Part shown: piece by piece, positions 41,808-50,215 of the stretch
Layout of the letters: each line of letters starts with the position of its first letter
How positions within the stretch are numbered: position 1 is the first letter of the stretch
Assembly: GCF_002798405.1 (NCBI RefSeq)
Contig: NZ_PGGV01000037.1
Location: 62,001-126,000, forward strand
Length of the DNA stretch: 64,000 nt
DNA from: Glycomyces xiaoerkulensis
GTDB taxonomy: Bacteria; Actinomycetota; Actinomycetes; Mycobacteriales; Micromonosporaceae
Reading direction: 5' to 3'
The notes under the pieces: generated by a model
Seen by the model: the letters and a program-made list of their open reading frames with translations, nothing else
Told to the model about the DNA's origin: nothing
The model's database searches: none
Made by a program: the position numbers and the translations under genes

Positions 41808-42557
41808 ATGGCAGCCGATTCCGAAAAGCTCTGGGACGAGACCGGGATCGAACCGGTCGAGATCCACTTGGGCAAGGACTCGGGTTACACCCTTCGCGCG
41901 TACCGCATGTCGGACACGCTTCCGGGGGCGGCCGAGGCCGCCGAGAAGGCGGAGGCCGCCAAGCGCCCCGACATCGCCGAGCGCCCCGAGGACGAGGACA
42001 ACGAGGCGCCCGACGAGTCCGACTTCCTCGACGAGGAGCTCGACGTGCTCGACGCCGAGCCCGAAGAGGTTCCGGTGTTCCTGGTCCGCAAGGGCAAGTT
42101 GCAATTGTTCCGTGACGCCGAGTCACTGGTTCGCTATGTGCGCGAATCGGACGACAACGATTTGGCCGCGGTCGAGGAGTACGGCGATCTGCAGAAGCGG
42201 CTGACCGCCGACGCCGTCGTATGTGACGAAGCCGACATCTATGAATTGGACCTGGTCACGACGAATCTGCGCGGCGGCCACGAATCGTGGGACCCCGAGC
42301 TGCTCATCAAGGCCGCCGAGATCGGCCGCGACTTGGGGTACGCATTGCGCAACTCTTCGGTGATCGACCCGCTCTCCCCGGGTTCGCCCCTCGACGACAT
42401 CGACGAGGCACTCCGAGCCATTGTGGATGGCGGGCTTCGCGGCATGTTCGCCAAACGCCGACTTCGCAAGACCGGCACCGAGCAGGCGGCCATCGCCTGG
42501 CGCGGCGTGATCGGAAAGATCACCGAATCCACCGAATGGCACGGCGAGACCGAATAG
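41808..42557 (+). CDS. Uncharacterised acidic protein
   Basis: The 249-residue protein has an N-terminal domain start (EPVEIHLGKDSGYTLRAYRM), a very acidic linker (about 38–82, DEDNEAPDESDFLDEELD), and a C-terminal part with KGKLQLFRDAESLVRYVRES and EADIYELDLVTTNL. The last about 100 residues look helical. I recognise no characterised family. The ATG at 41808 follows a GGAAGGA box. It stands alone before the IS110-like/Roadblock unit on the same strand, 270 bp away, so a functional link is not shown. Confidence 0.8.
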   Translation: MAADSEKLWDETGIEPVEIHLGKDSGYTLRAYRMSDTLPGAAEAAEKAEAAKRPDIAERPEDEDNEAPDESDFLDEELDVLDAEPEEVPVFLVRKGKLQLFRDAESLVRYVRESDDNDLAAVEEYGDLQKRLTADAVVCDEADIYELDLVTTNLRGGHESWDPELLIKAAEIGRDLGYALRNSSVIDPLSPGSPLDDIDEALRAIVDGGLRGMFAKRRLRKTGTEQAAIAWRGVIGKITESTEWHGETE

Positions 42558-42827
42558 CCCGAGATCGACTCCGCTCTCGGACGGTAACGGCGGGGTTCGA
42601 TCCGAGTAATTCCATACCGGACTCGAACCGGTCCGCAGACGGACGGGGTTGACGGATTTGCGTGCTATGGCCGCAATTTCGCGTGCCACCCCACGCTCGC
42701 CTCCCGCTTGCGGATCAGAGTATTCTGCGGAAAACTGAGTAACGGACCTATAAACGGCTCGGGGCGAAAGTCCACGCTGACAGGGTTGGTGTCTGTACGG
42801 GCGCGCCCTACGAGAGGAGCTCTGCGG

Positions 42828-44324
42828 GTGCAAGTCTTCTGCGGCATCACCACAGATCATGGGGCCGACACCGGTCAGGACGCCGTGCGCGCGGTGGCCC
42901 TCGTCGCCGCCGGCGGCGGGCTGCTCGCCACCGACACCTTCGCCGACGGCCCGCGCGGCTGGGTCCGCTTCGCCGGTCTGCTCGCCCGCCAGACCGCCGG
43001 CCCCTCCCCCGTCTCCATCGCCGTCGACGGCGAGATCGGCCAGATCGCCGAGTTCGCCGCCGCCGCCGGGCACCTCGTGGTCGAGGCGGAGAGCCCGCTG
43101 GCCCGTTCCAAGGACGCCCTCGACGACGCGGTGGCGCTCGCCCGCGGCCTGGCCACCGGCGAGGTCCAATGCGCCCAGCCGCTCGTCACGCGGCCCGACA
43201 CCGCCGCCCTTCGTCCGGTCCTCGACACCGTCGCGGTCGCCTCCAGGGCCCGCCACGAGGCGGCCGAGGCGCTCACCTGCCTGCTGCGCGCGGTCTTCCC
43301 CGCGGCCCTGGCCGCCTGGGACGACCCCAGTGAGACCAATGCGGTCGCGATCCTGACCCATCTGCCCCAACCCGGCGCGATCCATTCGATCTCGACCGAG
43401 GACCTGGCCGCCGACCTGGCGACCGTGGCCGACCCGGGCCAGGTCGCGGCGATGGCCGGCGCCCTGACCGAGGCGATCCGCGAGATCGGCGGCGGCGACG
43501 ACCCGGCGGTGGCGCCGTCGGTCTCGGGCGCCGCCGAGGCGGTCGCCGCCTGGGACCGGTCCCTGGAGGGCCTCATCGGCCTCCTGCAGTCCCGCCGGCC
43601 GCGGACCGAAGCCGGGCCGCCCCAGGCCGCTCCCGAGCCCTCAGAGCCGCGCCACGGCCTCCGCGACGGGCCGCACCGGAAGATGCGGCTCCCCGGCGAC
43701 CTGCCGGACCGCTCCAGCCTGCGCTCGCTCGACCCGAACTCGCAGATGCACTCGTTCGTCTCCCCCGACCTCGAAGCGACGCAAGTGCTCCCCGACGACG
43801 ACCCGCTCGAGGGCGACGCCCCCACCCGCGGCATCCGGCGCCGCCGCGACAGGGCGGCCGGGCTGCCGCAGCAGGACCCGCTCGGCGGCGAGGGCCGGCG
43901 CCACCCGTGGCAGCCGAAGGAGGACACCTTCGAAGACCTGGCCGCCCTCGCCGGCGACGACGACGGCCTGCTCATCTTCGGGCAGGCGCGGTCGGCGTGG
44001 TTCAAGCGGCCCGAGACCGAGGAGCCGGACGCCGCGAGCTGGCACGTGCCCGGCGACGAGGGCTGGCGCACCGCCCGCCACGTCACCGAGTCGCCCGAGG
44101 CCGAGGACGACACGACCCCCGCGGGGCTCCCGCGGCGCAAGCCGCAGGCGAACCTGGTGCCGGGCTCGGTCATCCCCGACGCCGTACCCGGCTCCGACGA
44201 ACCGATCGACCGCGACCCCGAGGTCCTGGCGTACAACACCGCCGGGTACTTCAAGGGGTGGGGCAAGGCCCGCGGCGGCCGCAACCAGGCCCCGCGCCGG
44301 AATGAGAGGATGGCGGCGCGATGA
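42828..44324 (+). CDS. Degenerate IS110-transposase-like domain fused to a conservon-kinase-like C-terminal tail
   Basis: Residues 1–240 resemble the N-terminal DEDD domain and linker of IS110 transposases (typical VFCGIDWA… and …LRSLLREYFPAALAAF): here VFCGITTDHG, LVVEAESPLARSKDALDDA and CLLRAVFPAALAAWDD. The first catalytic Asp is replaced (GIT for GID) and the Glu position reads VDG; the IS110 C-terminal domain is gone. After a Pro/Arg linker, residues about 388–498 share with the CvnA kinase at 46.5–49.6 kb the series SAWFK, DEGW, AGLPRRKPQANLVPG and a final AYNTAGYFKGWG. The GTG start has a GAGAGGAG box. There are no terminal inverted repeats, so this is not an active IS. The 270-bp region before it holds no supported gene. 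Confidence 0.75.
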   Translation: MQVFCGITTDHGADTGQDAVRAVALVAAGGGLLATDTFADGPRGWVRFAGLLARQTAGPSPVSIAVDGEIGQIAEFAAAAGHLVVEAESPLARSKDALDDAVALARGLATGEVQCAQPLVTRPDTAALRPVLDTVAVASRARHEAAEALTCLLRAVFPAALAAWDDPSETNAVAILTHLPQPGAIHSISTEDLAADLATVADPGQVAAMAGALTEAIREIGGGDDPAVAPSVSGAAEAVAAWDRSLEGLIGLLQSRRPRTEAGPPQAAPEPSEPRHGLRDGPHRKMRLPGDLPDRSSLRSLDPNSQMHSFVSPDLEATQVLPDDDPLEGDAPTRGIRRRRDRAAGLPQQDPLGGEGRRHPWQPKEDTFEDLAALAGDDDGLLIFGQARSAWFKRPETEEPDAASWHVPGDEGWRTARHVTESPEAEDDTTPAGLPRRKPQANLVPGSVIPDAVPGSDEPIDRDPEVLAYNTAGYFKGWGKARGGRNQAPRRNERMAAR

Positions 44325-44746
44325 GCGCCAACCTGGGAGTCTACGAACGCTCGCTGAGCATGCTGCTGGGGTCGCTGGTGGCCCGGACCCCCGGCCTGTC
44401 GCACGCGGTGCTGGTGAGCGTCGACGGTATGCCGCTGGCCGTGTCGGCCGGGCTCCCCAAGGAGCGCGCCGACCAGTTGGCCAGTATCGGTTCCGGGCTG
44501 CTGTCGATCGGCGAGGGCGCCGGACGGGCGATGAACCACGGACCGACCCAGCAGGTCATCGTCGAGATGGCCGAGGGCGTCCTCCTGGCGGCCCCGGTGG
44601 GGCCGCAGATCTGCCTGACGCTGCTGGCGGTGTCGCAGTGCGACCGCGAGCAGCTCGGCTACGAGCTCGGCCAGTTCACCATGCAGGTGGGCCCCCTGCT
44701 GAACGAGGCGCTCACCAACACCGGCTCGATCCCGAAGGTCGTTTGA
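44321..44746 (+). CDS. Roadblock/LC7-domain protein paired with the IS110-like fusion
   Basis: This 141-residue Roadblock/LC7 (MglB-like) protein is of the kind called CvnB in conservons: LVARTPGLSHAVLVSVDGMP, LAVSAGLPKERADQLASIGS and QQVIVEMAEGVLLAAPVG. Roadblock proteins bind small GTPases or other Roadblock domains. It overlaps the preceding fusion gene by 4 bp (ATGA), so the two are surely co-expressed. It differs from the conservon Roadblock at 46.1 kb but shares its layout, and could interact with the GTPase encoded opposite. A perfect hairpin follows 4 bp after its stop. Confidence 0.92.
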   Translation: MSANLGVYERSLSMLLGSLVARTPGLSHAVLVSVDGMPLAVSAGLPKERADQLASIGSGLLSIGEGAGRAMNHGPTQQVIVEMAEGVLLAAPVGPQICLTLLAVSQCDREQLGYELGQFTMQVGPLLNEALTNTGSIPKVV

Positions 44747-44750
44747 GGCA

Positions 44751-44788
44751 AGCGAAGGGCCCGGGGCTCTCGCCCCGGGCCCTTCGCT
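44751..44788. terminator. Perfect 17-bp bidirectional terminator stem
   Basis: AGCGAAGGGCCCGGGGC (44751–44767) and its exact complement (44772–44788) are separated by TCTC. The stem lies between two convergent genes (stops at 44746 and 44847) and likely ends both transcripts. Confidence 0.75.
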
Positions 44789-44846
44789 CTGGTCCAGGTG
44801 GTTCGGGTCAGCCTAGACAGGTACGGCCGGCGTCGCTATGTGGGCT

Positions 44847-45434
44847 CTAACCGACGCCGACGGTGCGGGTTCGCCGCATGGACAAGACGTATTCGACGAG
44901 CTTGATGAGCACCTGCTTGGTCGACTCGCGGTTCCGCGCATCGGTGTACATCAGCGGTACATCCTGGGAGACCTGGAGGGCGTCCCGGATGTCCTGGAGC
45001 TCGTGGAGCTGCTTGCCGTCGAAGCAGTTGACGGCCACCAGGTACGGGAGCTTCCGGTGCTCGAAGAAGTCGATGACCGAGAAGCAGTCGGCCAGCCGCC
45101 GGGTGTCGACCAGCACGATCGCGCCGATCGCGCCGCGCACCAGCTCGTCCCACATGAACCAGAACCGGGTCTGGCCGGGGGTGCCGAACAGGTACAGGAT
45201 CAGGTCCTGGTCGATGCTGATGCGGCCGAAATCCATGGCGACGGTCGTGGTCGCCTTGTCGGGCACGAGGTTGTTGTCGTCGACGCCCTCGGAGGCCGAC
45301 GTCATGATCGCCTCGGTGGTCAACGGAGTGATCTCGGAGACCGAACCGACCAATGTCGTCTTGCCGACGCCGAAGCCGCCGGCGATGACGATCTTGGCAG
45401 AGGTCACGCGAGAGGTGTCTGCGGGTGAGTTCAT
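44847..45434 (-). CDS. Conservon GTPase CvnD
   Basis: This 195-residue small GTPase-like protein is the last member of the conservon: P-loop IAGGFGVGKTTLVGSVSEI (about 17–35), the switch-like TTTVAMDFGRI, GTPGQTRFWFMWDELVRGA and the guanine-specificity loop, which reads VNCFDG in place of NKxD. CvnD proteins switch between GTP and GDP and couple to the Roadblock and DUF742 partners at the membrane kinase CvnA. The ATG start lies 6 bp after the CvnC stop. Confidence 0.94.
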   Translation of the reverse strand: MNSPADTSRVTSAKIVIAGGFGVGKTTLVGSVSEITPLTTEAIMTSASEGVDDNNLVPDKATTTVAMDFGRISIDQDLILYLFGTPGQTRFWFMWDELVRGAIGAIVLVDTRRLADCFSVIDFFEHRKLPYLVAVNCFDGKQLHELQDIRDALQVSQDVPLMYTDARNRESTKQVLIKLVEYVLSMRRTRTVGVG

Positions 45435-45440
45435 TAGGGT

Positions 45441-45821
45441 CTAAAGCCTCCTGAGTCCACTGAGAACGCGCTCGAGGAGTTCGGTTCCGACGGATTCGTC
45501 GGCGCCGTCGTCGCCGCTGAATCCAGTGGGTTCGTGCACTGCCAACAAGCCGTCGGCCGCCATGTCGGCCACCAACACGCGAGCAACGCCCAAAGGCACT
45601 TCCATACGGGCGGCGATCTCCGCCAACGATTGCAGTCGGCCGCCGCAGAGATCAACGATCACCTTCTGCTCGCGACCGCCGAGGAACTGCCCCGACCTGC
45701 CGCGAGCGGTGGCTTCGACCAGCGCTTCGAGGGCGATCTCCAATTGGGGTCGCGTGCGGCCGCGCGTGACCGCATACGGCCTGACGAGTGAGCCTGTCGG
45801 CTCATCTCCACCGAGGACCAT
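45441..45821 (-). CDS. Conservon DUF742 protein CvnC
   Basis: This 126-residue protein has GSLVRPYAVTRGRTRPQLEI and the C-terminal winged-helix-like part EQKVIVDLCGGRLQSLAEIA, ARMEVPLGVARVLVADM, both standard for DUF742 (CvnC). The role is thought to be protein binding in the signalling complex rather than DNA binding. I chose the ATG at 45821 with GGAGG five bases upstream over a GTG at 45854. The 251-bp gap to the Roadblock gene before it is larger than usual and holds a hairpin at 45917–45938. Confidence 0.93.
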   Translation of the reverse strand: MVLGGDEPTGSLVRPYAVTRGRTRPQLEIALEALVEATARGRSGQFLGGREQKVIVDLCGGRLQSLAEIAARMEVPLGVARVLVADMAADGLLAVHEPTGFSGDDGADESVGTELLERVLSGLRRL

Positions 45822-45916
45822 TTCTACCTCCAACCGCCGCCGTCCAGGTCCCACAACCCGGAACGACGAGCAGTCATGTCAGTTTTCCGTAACCACCGCC
45901 TGGGGCGACAGTGGTC

Positions 45917-45938
45917 CCGTCGTCTGGGGAGACGACGG
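45917..45938. promoter_or_regulatory. Perfect hairpin in the cvnB–cvnC gap
   Basis: CCGTCGTCT and AGACGACGG form a perfect 9-bp stem with a 4-nt loop in the 251-bp gap between two conservon genes that are normally nearly touching. It could be an attenuator, an RNA-processing site, or the edge of a second promoter. Confidence 0.5.
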
Positions 45939-46072
45939 AGGGGTAACTCTTCAGTTTGTCCCACTCGCGCCTGTTAACCGCATCGAGTGGAGCCTACCGT
46001 GCCGGTGTCCCAAGAGACAAACCGCCATTGGTCGCACACCCTGCCGACCTGGGCCGCGGACCGGAGGGCCCG

Positions 46073-46471
46073 TCAGCTCCGCGCCGACGGGGTGAGGGCC
46101 TGGCCGACCCGGTCCACCAGCAACGCCATCTCGTAACCGACCTGGCCCACGTCGCAATTCTTGGAGGCCAGGACGGCGAACGACGATCCGTCGCTGATGG
46201 ACATCAGGAACAGGAAGCCGTGGTCCATCTCGACGACCGTCTGCAATACCGCACCGCCTTCGAAGCAGCGCGACGCCCCCTGGGTAAGGCTCACCAGGCC
46301 CGAAGTGACGGCCGAAAGCTGGTCGGCGCGGTCCCTGGGCAGGTCCCGCGACGACGCCATCAGCAGGCCGTCGGCGCTGACCGCTACGGCGTGCGCCACT
46401 CCCGGCACGCGTTCGGCGAATCCCGCCAGCAGCCAGCCCAAGTCCTGGACTGTCGTTCCACCAGTGCTCAT
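46073..46471 (-). CDS. Conservon Roadblock/LC7 protein CvnB
   Basis: This 132-residue Roadblock protein has [40 protein letters not shown] and [20 protein letters not shown]. Its position, directly after the kinase-like CvnA, is that of CvnB. The N-terminal [13 protein letters not shown] is characteristic. It likely forms a complex with CvnA and CvnD. The start ATG lies 39 bp after the cvnA stop. Confidence 0.94.
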
Positions 46472-46510
46472 CGTATGCGCTCCTTAGCGTCTACCGTGTA
46501 GCTCAGCGAG

Positions 46511-49500
46511 TCAGTTCCCATCATTGCCACGTCCTCGCTGCACCCCGCGGTGATAGGCCGACAGCAGTCCCCGAATGCCTTCGGGGTTGCGCTTCTGCGC
46601 GCTGACGGTCTCCTGCGTCTCCTCAACACCGCCCGGAACGAGGCGTTCCATGGGGCGGCGTTTGGGGAGCCCCGCCGAGGTGGTTTCATCTGCCGGCTCG
46701 GCGAAGGCGTCGTTGACCCGGCTCCAGCCGTCGTCGGCGGCGGTGCGCCAGGCATATGACGAGTCTGATTCGGATTCATCGGTCTGCAGGCGCCGCCGTT
46801 CGGGGCCGGGCCGGCTAGCCGGCTCGGGCGGCTCGGCGCTCGGGGGCGGGCTGTGCATGGTCGCGCCTTCCGTGGGCTGCGGAGACTGGGAGGAGTCGTC
46901 CCAAGCCGAAGCGGGTGATCCGCTCGCACTTGAGCCATCACCGTACCGCGGCCCGGGCTCGTCCGCCACCCTCGCGGAGGGCTCCTCGACCGGCTTCGGA
47001 GCAGGCGTGACCGCCTTGAACCAGGCCGACTCGACCTCGCGGAATATCGGCAGCTCGGTCGTGGCGTCGACCGCCGACACCCGGTCGGACCGCATCGTCT
47101 TGCGCGGCGCCTCGGTACCGGACCCCGCGGCGGCGTCGGGCCACGACGGCGGCGCGTTCTCCTCCGGCTGCGGGGCGGCCTCGAGCTGGATCTTCGGCAG
47201 CGCCACGTGCTCGGACGAGACGATCTCGCCGGTGACCTCCATGACCTTGCCGTTGGGGCGGGGCTCCTCGGTCAGCCCGCCGGGCCGGAACATGAAGCCC
47301 GGCTCATGCCCGGTCTGCGTCGAGTACTCCCCGGTGCGCGGCTCGCTGTGCGGGGTCGGCTGAGGCGCCGGAGGCGGCTGCTGCGGCGGTGCGGTCGGCT
47401 CCGGCGGCCGGAACGACGGCGGGCGCTCCTGCTGCTGCGGCGGCGACTGCGGCCCGCCCTGCGGGGCGACGGTGTCGAACAGCCCGGCCGGGCTCTCGGG
47501 GACCCGCGGCAGGGAACCGGTGTCGTTCGCCAGCAGCTCGCCGCGGGGACCGCGCTCGCGGTCCAGCCCCATGGTCTCGCCGCTGTCGGGCTGTCCGCGC
47601 TCGGGCAGCCGCGGCTCGGACAGGACCGCCTCGCCGAGGACGAGCTCGGCGACGATACCGCGCTGGTCGCCGGGCCGCAGCTCGACGCCGACGTTGTGGC
47701 GCTTGCCCAGGCGGGCGACCACGACCAGGCCCATCATCCGCGAGGAGGCCAGGTCGATGACGTCGGCGGTCTCGCCGAGCTGGCGGTTGATCTCCTCCAG
47801 TTGGGCCTCGGGCATGCCGATGCCGGAGTCGATGATGCGGATCCGGACCGCGCCGGTCGGGTTCTCGGCGGTGCGCATCTGGTCGGCGGTGACGATGACC
47901 GCCGACTCCGGCGGGGAGAACGCGGTGGCGTTGTCCATCAGCTCGGCGATCAGGTGCACCAGGTCGTTGACGGCGGCCGGCTTGACCTCCCGCTGGGCGT
48001 CGACCTGGCCGAACTCGATGCGGGTGTACTGCTCCACCTCGGACTGGGCGGCCTGCAGGATGTCGCCGATAGGCGCCGGGTGCCGCTCCTGGCGGGTGGA
48101 GTCGGCACCGGCCAGCACCAGCAGGTTCTCGTCGTTGCGCCGCATTCGGGTCGCCAGGTGGTCGAGCTGGAAGAGTTCGGCCAGGCGGTCGGGGTTCTCC
48201 TCGCCGCGCTCCAGGTGGTCGAGGTGGCCGATGAGCCGGTCGACCAGGTTCTGGGAGCGCCGGGCGAGGTTGATGAACATCTGCGAGACGTTGGCCCGCA
48301 GGGCCGCCTGCTCGGCGGCGATGCGGATCGCCTCGGTGTGGACGATGTTGAACGCGTGCGCCACGTTGCCGATCTCGTCGCGCTGTTCGATGTCGATCGC
48401 CTCGCCGGTCTCGGCGGCGACCTCGTCGGGCGTCCGCCCGGCGATGGTCTCGGTGTCGCGCATCTGGGCCACCGCCTGCGGCAGGCCGACGTGCGCCACG
48501 TCCAGCGCACCCTCGCGGAGGCGCCGCAGCCCGCTGGCCATGTTCCGGGCGATGATCAGGGCGATCACGGTCGCGATGACGAACGCGGCCAGGATGAGGA
48601 TGGCCTCGAGCAGGAGCTGGAAGATCTGCGAGTCGCGGTCGGACCGGGCCTGGCTGAGCACTTCGGCGGACTCGTTGTCGATGTAGGTCAGGCCGTTGTC
48701 CAGGATCGCGTCGTAGGCGGAGACGATCTCGGCGTCGACCGACAGCGGTGCGCTGGTGCCGCCGCCGACGGTCTGGGCCTCGAAGTCGAGCGCGGGGCGG
48801 GCCTCCTCGGTGGCCAGGCCGCCGGAGCGGTAGAAGAATGCGAGCTGCTCGTCGCGGTTGGCGATGGTCTTGAACTCGTTCTCGGCGCTCACCCGCAGTT
48901 CGGAGAAGGAGATGAAGCTCGTCCAGCGGGTGGTGTTGAGGAAGTTGTTGCCGTCGCCGACGTTGATCGCGATCGCGCGCTCCTCCTCCATCTGCTCCAG
49001 GACGATGGTGGCGGAGGCGATGGCCTGGAGCTGACGGGCGATCTCCGGGTCGTTGACGATACGGGCGGAGATGTCGGTGATCGTGACCAGCTCGCCGACC
49101 AGGCGCTGGTAGACGCGGGAGGTCGCGTCGATCGAGGTGTGGAGCGGGTTCTCCTCGGCGGCGGTCCGGATCTGCAGCAGGCTCTCGTACTGGGTGTCGA
49201 CCGCGGCGATGCGGTTGGAGATGTCGTCGGACAGGTTCGGCAACTGGCCGGCGCTCTGTTCGAATGCCTCCAGCGCGTCGTCGGTCAGCCTGGCCTGGGC
49301 CTGGATGTCGTCGAGTTCGTACTCCTCGGGGTCGATGCCCTCGACGTGCCCGTCGTCCTTGCGCAGGTAGGTGACGATGAGGCTGCGCTCGCGCTGGAGC
49401 TCGTAGCGCAGCTCGGCGGTGACGGTGTTGAACTCCACCAGGCTCACCATGTCGTCGGATTCGAAGACGCGATCGGCCAGGTCGTAGAGGCGGAGCCCGG

Positions 49501-49639
49501 CGACTGCGACGAGGACTAGGAGCGGTACCAGGAGAATCAGGCCCAGCTTGGACCTGATTCGCATGTCGGCGATGCGGGGCATGCCCAACGGGCCTCGTCG
49601 AGCCGCTGAACCCGCTCGGTTCGAGCTGCGCTTGCTCAC
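46511..49639 (-). CDS. Conservon sensor histidine-kinase-like protein CvnA (NIT–HAMP–HATPase)
   Basis: The 1042-residue membrane protein has a first span near 29–50 (KLGLILLVPLLVLVAVAGLR), an outer NIT-type (nitrate/nitrite-sensing-like) domain with FNTVTAELRYELQRERSLIV, a second span near 345–370 (ILILAAFVIATVIALIIARN), a HAMP region, a dimer helix (MFINLARRSQNLVDRLIGHL) and an HATPase domain with LIAELMDNATAFSPPES and IIDSGIGMPEAQLEEINRQL. The long Pro-rich C-terminus (about 680–1042) ends in the AGLPKRRPMERLVPGGVEE tail module shared with the IS110-like fusion. It starts at GTG 49639. CvnA proteins usually lack phosphotransfer and are thought to signal through the BCD partners. Confidence 0.92.
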   Translation of the reverse strand: MSKRSSNRAGSAARRGPLGMPRIADMRIRSKLGLILLVPLLVLVAVAGLRLYDLADRVFESDDMVSLVEFNTVTAELRYELQRERSLIVTYLRKDDGHVEGIDPEEYELDDIQAQARLTDDALEAFEQSAGQLPNLSDDISNRIAAVDTQYESLLQIRTAAEENPLHTSIDATSRVYQRLVGELVTITDISARIVNDPEIARQLQAIASATIVLEQMEEERAIAINVGDGNNFLNTTRWTSFISFSELRVSAENEFKTIANRDEQLAFFYRSGGLATEEARPALDFEAQTVGGGTSAPLSVDAEIVSAYDAILDNGLTYIDNESAEVLSQARSDRDSQIFQLLLEAILILAAFVIATVIALIIARNMASGLRRLREGALDVAHVGLPQAVAQMRDTETIAGRTPDEVAAETGEAIDIEQRDEIGNVAHAFNIVHTEAIRIAAEQAALRANVSQMFINLARRSQNLVDRLIGHLDHLERGEENPDRLAELFQLDHLATRMRRNDENLLVLAGADSTRQERHPAPIGDILQAAQSEVEQYTRIEFGQVDAQREVKPAAVNDLVHLIAELMDNATAFSPPESAVIVTADQMRTAENPTGAVRIRIIDSGIGMPEAQLEEINRQLGETADVIDLASSRMMGLVVVARLGKRHNVGVELRPGDQRGIVAELVLGEAVLSEPRLPERGQPDSGETMGLDRERGPRGELLANDTGSLPRVPESPAGLFDTVAPQGGPQSPPQQQERPPSFRPPEPTAPPQQPPPAPQPTPHSEPRTGEYSTQTGHEPGFMFRPGGLTEEPRPNGKVMEVTGEIVSSEHVALPKIQLEAAPQPEENAPPSWPDAAAGSGTEAPRKTMRSDRVSAVDATTELPIFREVESAWFKAVTPAPKPVEEPSARVADEPGPRYGDGSSASGSPASAWDDSSQSPQPTEGATMHSPPPSAEPPEPASRPGPERRRLQTDESESDSSYAWRTAADDGWSRVNDAFAEPADETTSAGLPKRRPMERLVPGGVEETQETVSAQKRNPEGIRGLLSAYHRGVQRGRGNDGN

Positions 49640-50132
49640 CTTTGTCTAGCCTCCTGGGGTGGTCCTCTGTTCAGACCGGCGCCGGGCATTGGGGCCGGTG
49701 CTGTTTCGGGCCGGCGGCGCGCGCCGGCTGCCGTCCGGCCGCTCGGGGCGGCCGGGTCGGCATGTGAAGCCCAGCAGATTCCATCATGACGAAAGTGCGC
49801 TCCGAAATCCAGGGGCGTACTGGAGTTCCCCAACCGGCCACGTTACACACCGCGCTACGGGTCCATTCGCCCTAAACCGCATAATTTCGGACACATGCAT
49901 AGGGCGTATTCAGCTCTTCGGGCGGCAAGTCGACCCGCACGGACGAGCTGAACCGCGGTGTCACGGCGGGCGGCGGGGCGAGGCGTCCTCACGCTACCGA
50001 GCGTCCGATGACCGTCCGTGAATGACCTATTCGGACTCCCCTCGCGACGCCCCGAGGGCGGTCGCCGACTCCCGGCGATCGGCGACAGCCCTGGTCAACC
50101 CGGCGTTCACCTCGCCGGAGTGCGACAACCCC

Positions 50133-50152
50133 TCAGGAATCACCATTCCTGA
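50133..50152. promoter_or_regulatory. Inverted repeat upstream of MHYT genes (site 1)
   Basis: TCAGGAAT and ATTCCTGA, perfect 8-bp arms with a 4-bp spacer, about 120 bp before the first MHYT start. Possible operator or RNA hairpin. Confidence 0.45.
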
Positions 50153-50198
50153 ACATGACACCATATCGCCCATATGCGGAGCAAATCCGTGCAAAGAC

Positions 50199-50215
50199 TC
50201 GCACAGCCTGTGCGA
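50199..50215. promoter_or_regulatory. Inverted repeat upstream of MHYT genes (site 2)
   Basis: TCGCACAG-C-CTGTGCGA, perfect 8-bp arms with a 1-bp centre, 57 bp before the first MHYT start. Better suited to an operator than to a hairpin. Confidence 0.45.

Follow-up and report, generated by a model that had tools for sequence, protein, structure and literature searches.

FUS, an IS110-like protein with a CvnA-like tail encoded beside a conservon in Glycomyces xiaoerkulensis and its family

The FUS gene and its neighbours

The window analysed here is a stretch of 64,000 nucleotides from Glycomyces xiaoerkulensis (contig NZ_PGGV01000037.1, positions 62,001 to 126,000; coordinates below are those of the window), which we take to belong to the GTDB family Micromonosporaceae, a family with many antibiotic producers among its members. 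On its plus strand lies a gene, here called FUS, in which an IS110-like fold is followed by a linker and by a tail resembling that of the conservon kinase CvnA. FUS (42828..44324) has a GTG start and a stop at 44322-44324, and encodes 498 residues in three parts. The N-domain (residues 1-260; 42828..43607) has an RNase-H/RuvC-like fold followed by the coiled-coil helices of IS110, with Thr8 in place of the leading Asp. The variable linker (residues 261-375; 43608..43952) occupies in the alignments the place of the IS110 Tnp domain. The CvnA-like tail (residues 376-498; 43953..44321) contains LIF..SAWF, GDEGW, GLPRRKPQANLVPG and GYFKGW, and GLPRRKPQANLVPG (44124..44165) holds the LPxR motif that has been described for CvnA (PMC4316618).

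The following gene, RB2 (44321..44746, plus strand), encodes a Roadblock/LC7 protein of the MglB type with 141 residues (PF03259, 3.3e-18). The first-pass annotation of this DNA had noted that it overlaps FUS by four bases, and this is so: the overlap reads ATGA, and the junction is the same in all 20 Glycomyces relatives in which a FUS orthologue was located. Facing this pair, tail to tail, is a minus-strand operon (44847-49639) of kinase, Roadblock, DUF742 and GTPase genes that according to Pfam is a complete cvnABCD conservon core. It consists of cvnD, the small GTPase (44847..45434; best model ATP_bind_1 at 1.3e-31, Ras at 0.0015), cvnC, a DUF742 gene (45441..45854; PF05331, 2.7e-29), cvnB, a Roadblock/LC7 gene (46073..46471; PF03259, 4.7e-21), and cvnA (46511..49639), which encodes a sensor kinase-like protein of NIT-HAMP-HATPase type (PF08376 at 3.1e-19, PF02518 at 9.1e-11, HAMP at 0.0028 and thus below the cut-off). 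The tail sequence of CvnA carries its own LPxR motif, GLPKRRPMERLVPG (46631..46672, minus strand). The FUS-RB2 pair itself is not a conservon core, as Pfam gave no kinase, DUF742 or GTPase match in it; FUS likewise had no Pfam match to HATPase, HAMP or NIT domains, or to P450 or GAF domains.

Upstream of FUS, a block around GTATTCTGCGGAAAACTGA (42707..42775, plus strand) is nearly unchanged across 21 Glycomyces sequences, and its 19-base core occurs as a single copy in the source genome when up to three mismatches are allowed. As judged from this conservation, the block is a candidate promoter or leader under a regulator. A search of 42000-50200 against Rfam (E<=0.5) gave no known RNA beside FUS, and PADLOC gave no defence-system match at E<=0.001 for six proteins, FUS included.

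An IS110-like N-domain without its catalytic residues

When full-length FUS was searched alone, neither Pfam nor NCBIfam gave a match at E<=1, and the sole match of its first 263 residues was DUF4350 (0.0028), under the cut-off of that family. The relationship to IS110 was seen when alignments were compared. The alignment of family N-domains, A2, contained 22 members (the window, three other Glycomyces and 18 of the first 20 other loci, with L086 and L095 excluded), and a further alignment, A1, held 14 of the 21 Glycomyces sequences. With hhalign, A2 matched the IS110 alignment A4 at E 2.4e-19 over 257 columns and the IS110 alignment A3 at E 1.6e-16 over 259 columns, while a Roadblock alignment used as the control gave E 0.13. 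A4 had been gathered with A2 as the query, whereas the sequences of A3 had been found independently, by searching with PF01548. PF01548 was also matched singly by 10 of the 22 A2 members (best 1.4e-5), the window sequence not being among them. The A2 profile matched 30 of 396 genomes of the phylum at E<=0.01, and its strongest matches outside the family (1e-28 to 1e-20) were mostly open reading frames (ORFs) of 335-440 residues, besides which there were single ORFs of 243 and 756 residues. A 756-residue match, in genome G192, has an IS110 start with the catalytic Asp intact, and at G142:C1:3296673 the A2 match coincides with an independent PF01548 match (1.3e-38).

In the AlphaFold2 model of the N-domain (mean predicted local distance difference test score, pLDDT, 89.2; predicted template modelling score 0.86), strands and helices come in an RNase-H-like order, after which there are long helices. 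When the model was compared with the PDB by Foldseek, chains of IS621 or ISCro4 made up 11 of the 12 best matches, the remaining one being UvrC. Profiles and predicted structure together confirm that the N-domain (about residues 1-260) is homologous to the RuvC-like and coiled-coil part of IS110 transposases, and the N-terminal similarity proposed in the first-pass annotation from inspection by eye has therefore held against a structure search, which did return RuvC/IS110 folds. A single-sequence search of the PDB gave 174 matches, the 60 best of which were antibody chains (best E 0.0028); these were rejected and put down to composition. A viral fold search gave nothing at or below 1e-3.

Catalytic positions were read from an alignment of 81 FUS proteins (21 from Glycomyces and 60 from other loci) and 16 IS110 proteins, the latter chosen from 24 collected IS110-like ORFs (seven from the PF01548 search of the order and nine from the A2 search of the phylum). 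The first catalytic Asp was present in 16/16 IS110 and in 0/81 FUS; all 21 Glycomyces proteins have Thr there, so that the replacement of GxD by GIT stated in the first-pass annotation is found throughout the genus, and relatives with an intact DEDD set were not found among the 81. The same annotation took the change of the Glu position to VDG as a further sign of loss. The column does hold Asp (67/81, with Glu in 3/81), but as evidence of lost catalysis this fails, since Asp stands there in 6 of the 16 sampled true IS110 as well. At the third acidic position Asp was seen in 6/81 FUS, and at the fourth in 20 of the 21 Glycomyces proteins and 0 of the 60 others. In FUS, Pfam gave no match to the Tnp domain (PF02371), which bears the nucleophilic Ser of IS110, and in the aligned relatives the linker and tail stand in its place. 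Previously, it has been shown for IS621 that mutating D11, E60, D102, D105 or S241 abolished recombination (PMC11208158). With the first Asp lost and the Tnp (serine) domain missing altogether, the FUS N-domain is, judged by its residues, catalytically dead.

The CvnA-like tail, RB2 and distribution in the family

The tail common to FUS and CvnA, which was also part of the first-pass annotation, was recovered in two ways. A search of the source genome matched the FUS tail to CvnA at 1.8e-7, and a profile-profile comparison with the CvnA C-terminus gave E 3.1e-15 over the last 77 columns. The profiles (A6/A7) were built from 15 FUS tails and 16 CvnA tails chosen by eye, and in some loci (L087, L089 and L191) the CvnA tail extracted by script was the wrong stretch. 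Both kinds of tail have the order LIF..SAWF, ADxGWxAA, GLPxRxP..LVPG and an aromatic-basic end, and the C-terminal extension of CvnA, with SAWF, ADxGW, GLPxRxP..LVPG and a Y..G-type end, follows the same order as FUS. Outside Glycomyces we examined 60 FUS loci from 38 genera. A SAWF-type motif was present in 58/60 of their FUS proteins, and AWF in 47/51 CvnA proteins. The LPxR pattern was found in 79/81 FUS (21/21 in Glycomyces and 58/60 elsewhere) and in 49/51 CvnA, one of the 49 being doubtful (LPRRTVDAE). The two FUS proteins without it are those of L179 and L202, and at both of these loci the CvnA frame is broken too.

In the description of LPxR, the motif belongs to an extension at the C-terminus of conservon kinases, and attention was drawn to its arginine because the GTPase and the Roadblock protein (MglB) lack an arginine finger; the authors gave the tail no function (PMC4316618). 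In other families, the N-domain stood beside a CvnA-type tail in none of 27 tail-bearing loci, 16 of which contain the CvnA core, the remainder ending at the locus border or being too diverged. The source genome has a second CvnA-type tail (G000:C22:355484) with a Roadblock match at C22:355177, one of five Roadblock matches in all, which suggests from sequence a second conservon in this genome.

Of the 150 genomes sampled from the family, 148 have a gene that matches the N-domain profile, and these cover 43 of 44 genera. In 58/60 loci the N-domain and the tail are in a single ORF, and a convergent cvnD lies within 5 kb of FUS in 52/60 and within 2 kb in 46/60; it is also present in four of the five annotated Glycomyces loci, with none in the 8 kb flank of L006. 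The source genome has one full FUS copy. FUS is thus not a mobile element but a fixed chromosomal gene, near-universal in the family. FUS and cvnD are separated, in 18 of the 60 loci (e.g. L095:10609-11904), by a gene that is on the same strand as FUS and resembles substrate-binding lipoproteins; by eye it is similar to LivJ-type ABC receptors, and it is possibly a further input.

RB2 was found directly 3' of FUS in 16 of the 60 loci, 12 of them by the distance rule of the script and four by hand (L088, L173, L185 and L196), where the stop-to-stop ORFs start far upstream and end 380-440 bases after FUS. In the two test genomes that have RB2, an RB2 profile reached 203 and 210 bits, and in eight other genomes nothing scored above 109 bits, the value of the adjacent CvnB, so RB2 seems to be absent there. 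The adjacent CvnB was the best match other than RB2 in 10/10 genomes. That RB2 could be a copy of the adjacent cvnB was considered and rejected, as a tree of 33 Roadblock proteins parts the 12 RB2 tips from the other 21; the support of this split is printed as 91 or 100, depending on the side of the re-rooted tree, and the CvnB branches are short. RB2 (alignment A5) forms its own Roadblock group apart from CvnB, and may be the 'orphan' actinobacterial MglB clade that is mentioned in PMC4316618.

Since RB2 is present in both main branches of FUS, the FUS-RB2 pair is, by this distribution, probably ancestral, with RB2 lost later. Where it is present, RB2 probably serves FUS as a Roadblock partner of its own, and the order of the two genes mirrors that of cvnA and cvnB. 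The two-gene unit facing the conservon that the first-pass annotation described is therefore found in its gene order, but not as an obligatory pairing. Conjectural, too, is the proposal in that annotation that the fusion takes the place of CvnA and could share the GTPase CvnD.

A possible accessory role in conservon signalling

We consider it somewhat more probable than not that FUS is a domesticated IS110 transposase that now serves as an accessory protein of the neighbouring conservon and offers its tail, in trans, to the GTPase/Roadblock module. In such a role, the dead RuvC/coiled-coil part would act as a soluble scaffold for dimerisation and protein docking, and the LPxR tail that FUS has in common with the membrane kinase CvnA would be displayed on the long linker. 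This tail would bind the GTPase/Roadblock module, that is, CvnD with CvnB, or with RB2 in the lineages that kept it. FUS would then provide the tail in trans, or compete for it, and the nucleotide state or the location of CvnD could be set apart from the kinase. A more specific form of the proposal, to which we give slightly less than even odds, is that FUS is a soluble pseudo-CvnA made from a dead IS110 protein, bringing the LPxR tail, and with it possibly the missing activating arginine, in trans to the module.

The role proposed for FUS has parallels in known systems. CvnE (a P450) and CvnF (a GAF protein) are, like FUS, extra proteins encoded beside cvnABCD, and CvnF modulates its kinase (PMC13343842). 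FUS differs from them in being a dead IS110 RuvC-coiled-coil protein with the LPxR tail of CvnA, in being encoded convergently and in having, in some lineages, its own Roadblock protein. Compared to CvnA, FUS has the tail but neither kinase nor NIT/HAMP domains. With IS110 transposases (IS621, ISCro4; PF01548 plus PF02371) it has the RuvC-like and coiled-coil part in common over about 257 columns, whereas it lacks the leading Asp and the Tnp/serine domain, is more acidic, is fixed in place and has a signalling tail fused to it. A precedent for a dead RuvC fold turned to protein recruitment is found among the IS110-related Nop5 and TIGR-Tas proteins, some of which have an inactive RuvC: the inactive RuvC of Nop5 has become a protein-recruiting platform and recruits fibrillarin (PMC12045711). 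These proteins retain the Nop RNA-binding domain, in contrast to FUS, which retains the coiled-coil part only.

Several observations weigh against an accessory role of FUS derived from IS110. The Foldseek matches are weak (best E 3.8e-3, none below 1e-3), with root-mean-square deviations of 16-21 Å to the IS110 chains, and the AlphaFold2 model of full-length FUS, for which 14 close relatives were given as input, has a pLDDT of 39. RB2 is missing at 44/60 loci, where models that require it fail. At 8/60 FUS loci there is no cvnD nearby; RB2 is present in all eight. In favour of the conservon link, however, all eight genomes have a cvnD homologue elsewhere (in G013 it is on the same strand, about 13 kb off; in G050 two frames share the nearest copy between them). 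The authors of PMC4316618 were cautious about a catalytic arginine in LPxR. In addition, CvnE and CvnF accompany kinases without a sensory domain (PMC13343842), while the CvnA of this locus has a NIT domain.

As an alternative, FUS could be a pure decoy, the tail drawing its binding partner off CvnA and the N-domain doing nothing but dimerising or stabilising the protein. Conservation limited to the fold and the tail would fit this, as the linker evolves fast and the stop-to-stop FUS ORFs of the 60 loci range from about 430 to 1384 residues. The median ratio of nonsynonymous to synonymous substitution (dN/dS) in Glycomyces (210 pairs for each part) was 0.425 in the linker, 0.309 in the tail and 0.187 in the N-domain; the N-domain is thus the slowest part, beyond the apparent need of an inert dimeriser, and we regard a pure decoy as unlikely.

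It is quite unlikely, in our view, that FUS is a nucleic-acid-binding output of the conservon, in which the dead RuvC/coiled-coil part would bind RNA or DNA and the tail would link it to the G protein. The retained coiled-coil belongs to the guide-RNA-binding region of IS110 and the IS110 RuvC works on DNA (PMC12045711, PMC11208158), and box C/D Nop5 structures were found at Foldseek ranks 13 and 19. However, the N-domain is acidic in all 22 members, with a net charge of -1 to -19 (-6 to +3 in the N-regions of IS110) and an isoelectric point of 4.4-6.1, compared to 5.5-9.0 in 15 IS110 proteins, although these ranges overlap. The acidity speaks against nucleic-acid binding, and so do the loss of the C-terminal Tnp part and the absence of an Rfam match beside FUS.

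A further alternative concerns the origin of FUS and is compatible with any of the functional readings: the N-domains of IS110 and FUS could descend from an older common ancestor, FUS not being derived from a transposase. In a tree of 25 of the 81 FUS and the 16 IS110 proteins, the two groups are split with support 100 and all sampled FUS sit on one long branch, which is consistent with one domestication; the tree is unrooted, and the long branch would suit an older ancestor too. Against this, only IS110-like ORFs, and no FUS, were recognised outside the family among the listed phylum matches (30/396 genomes matched), an absence that is provisional as only five (class search) and six (phylum search) candidates were scored per genome. 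Within the order, 34 of the 61 genomes gave a PF01548 match, and the loss of catalytic residues fits derivation. An older common ancestor is very unlikely in our estimate, and an IS110 transposase was probably domesticated once, in the ancestor of the family. The only PF01548 match of the source genome is an IS110 ORF (L081:1492-2634; G000:C23:48149). Its far part overlaps with an antisense ORF (1813-2523, minus) that by eye is similar to TnpB, so that the IS110 ORF looks interrupted.

Finally, that FUS is just a remnant of an IS110 element or a transposase pseudogene, placed beside the conservon by chance, has next to no probability and is contradicted by the present data, for although the IS110 homology is genuine, the gene is found in 148/150 genomes, adjoins a conservon in 52/60 loci, encodes N-domain and tail together in a single ORF at 58/60, has dN/dS well below 1 and is without the Tnp domain. 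The exapted IS110-like fold with lost catalysis put forward in the first-pass annotation agrees with the homology, the absent catalytic residues and the selection on the protein.

We found no description of a conservon-linked IS110-like protein in the open-licence PMC literature. The communication from kinase to GTPase in conservons has been described as poorly understood (PMC13343842), and as FUS carries the LPxR tail without a kinase, the function of the tail can be isolated by studying FUS. If the accessory role holds true, FUS would be an IS110-derived signalling protein in which the tail is naturally separated from the kinase, and would represent a clear exaptation of IS110 into signal transduction, retained in nearly all sampled members of the family.
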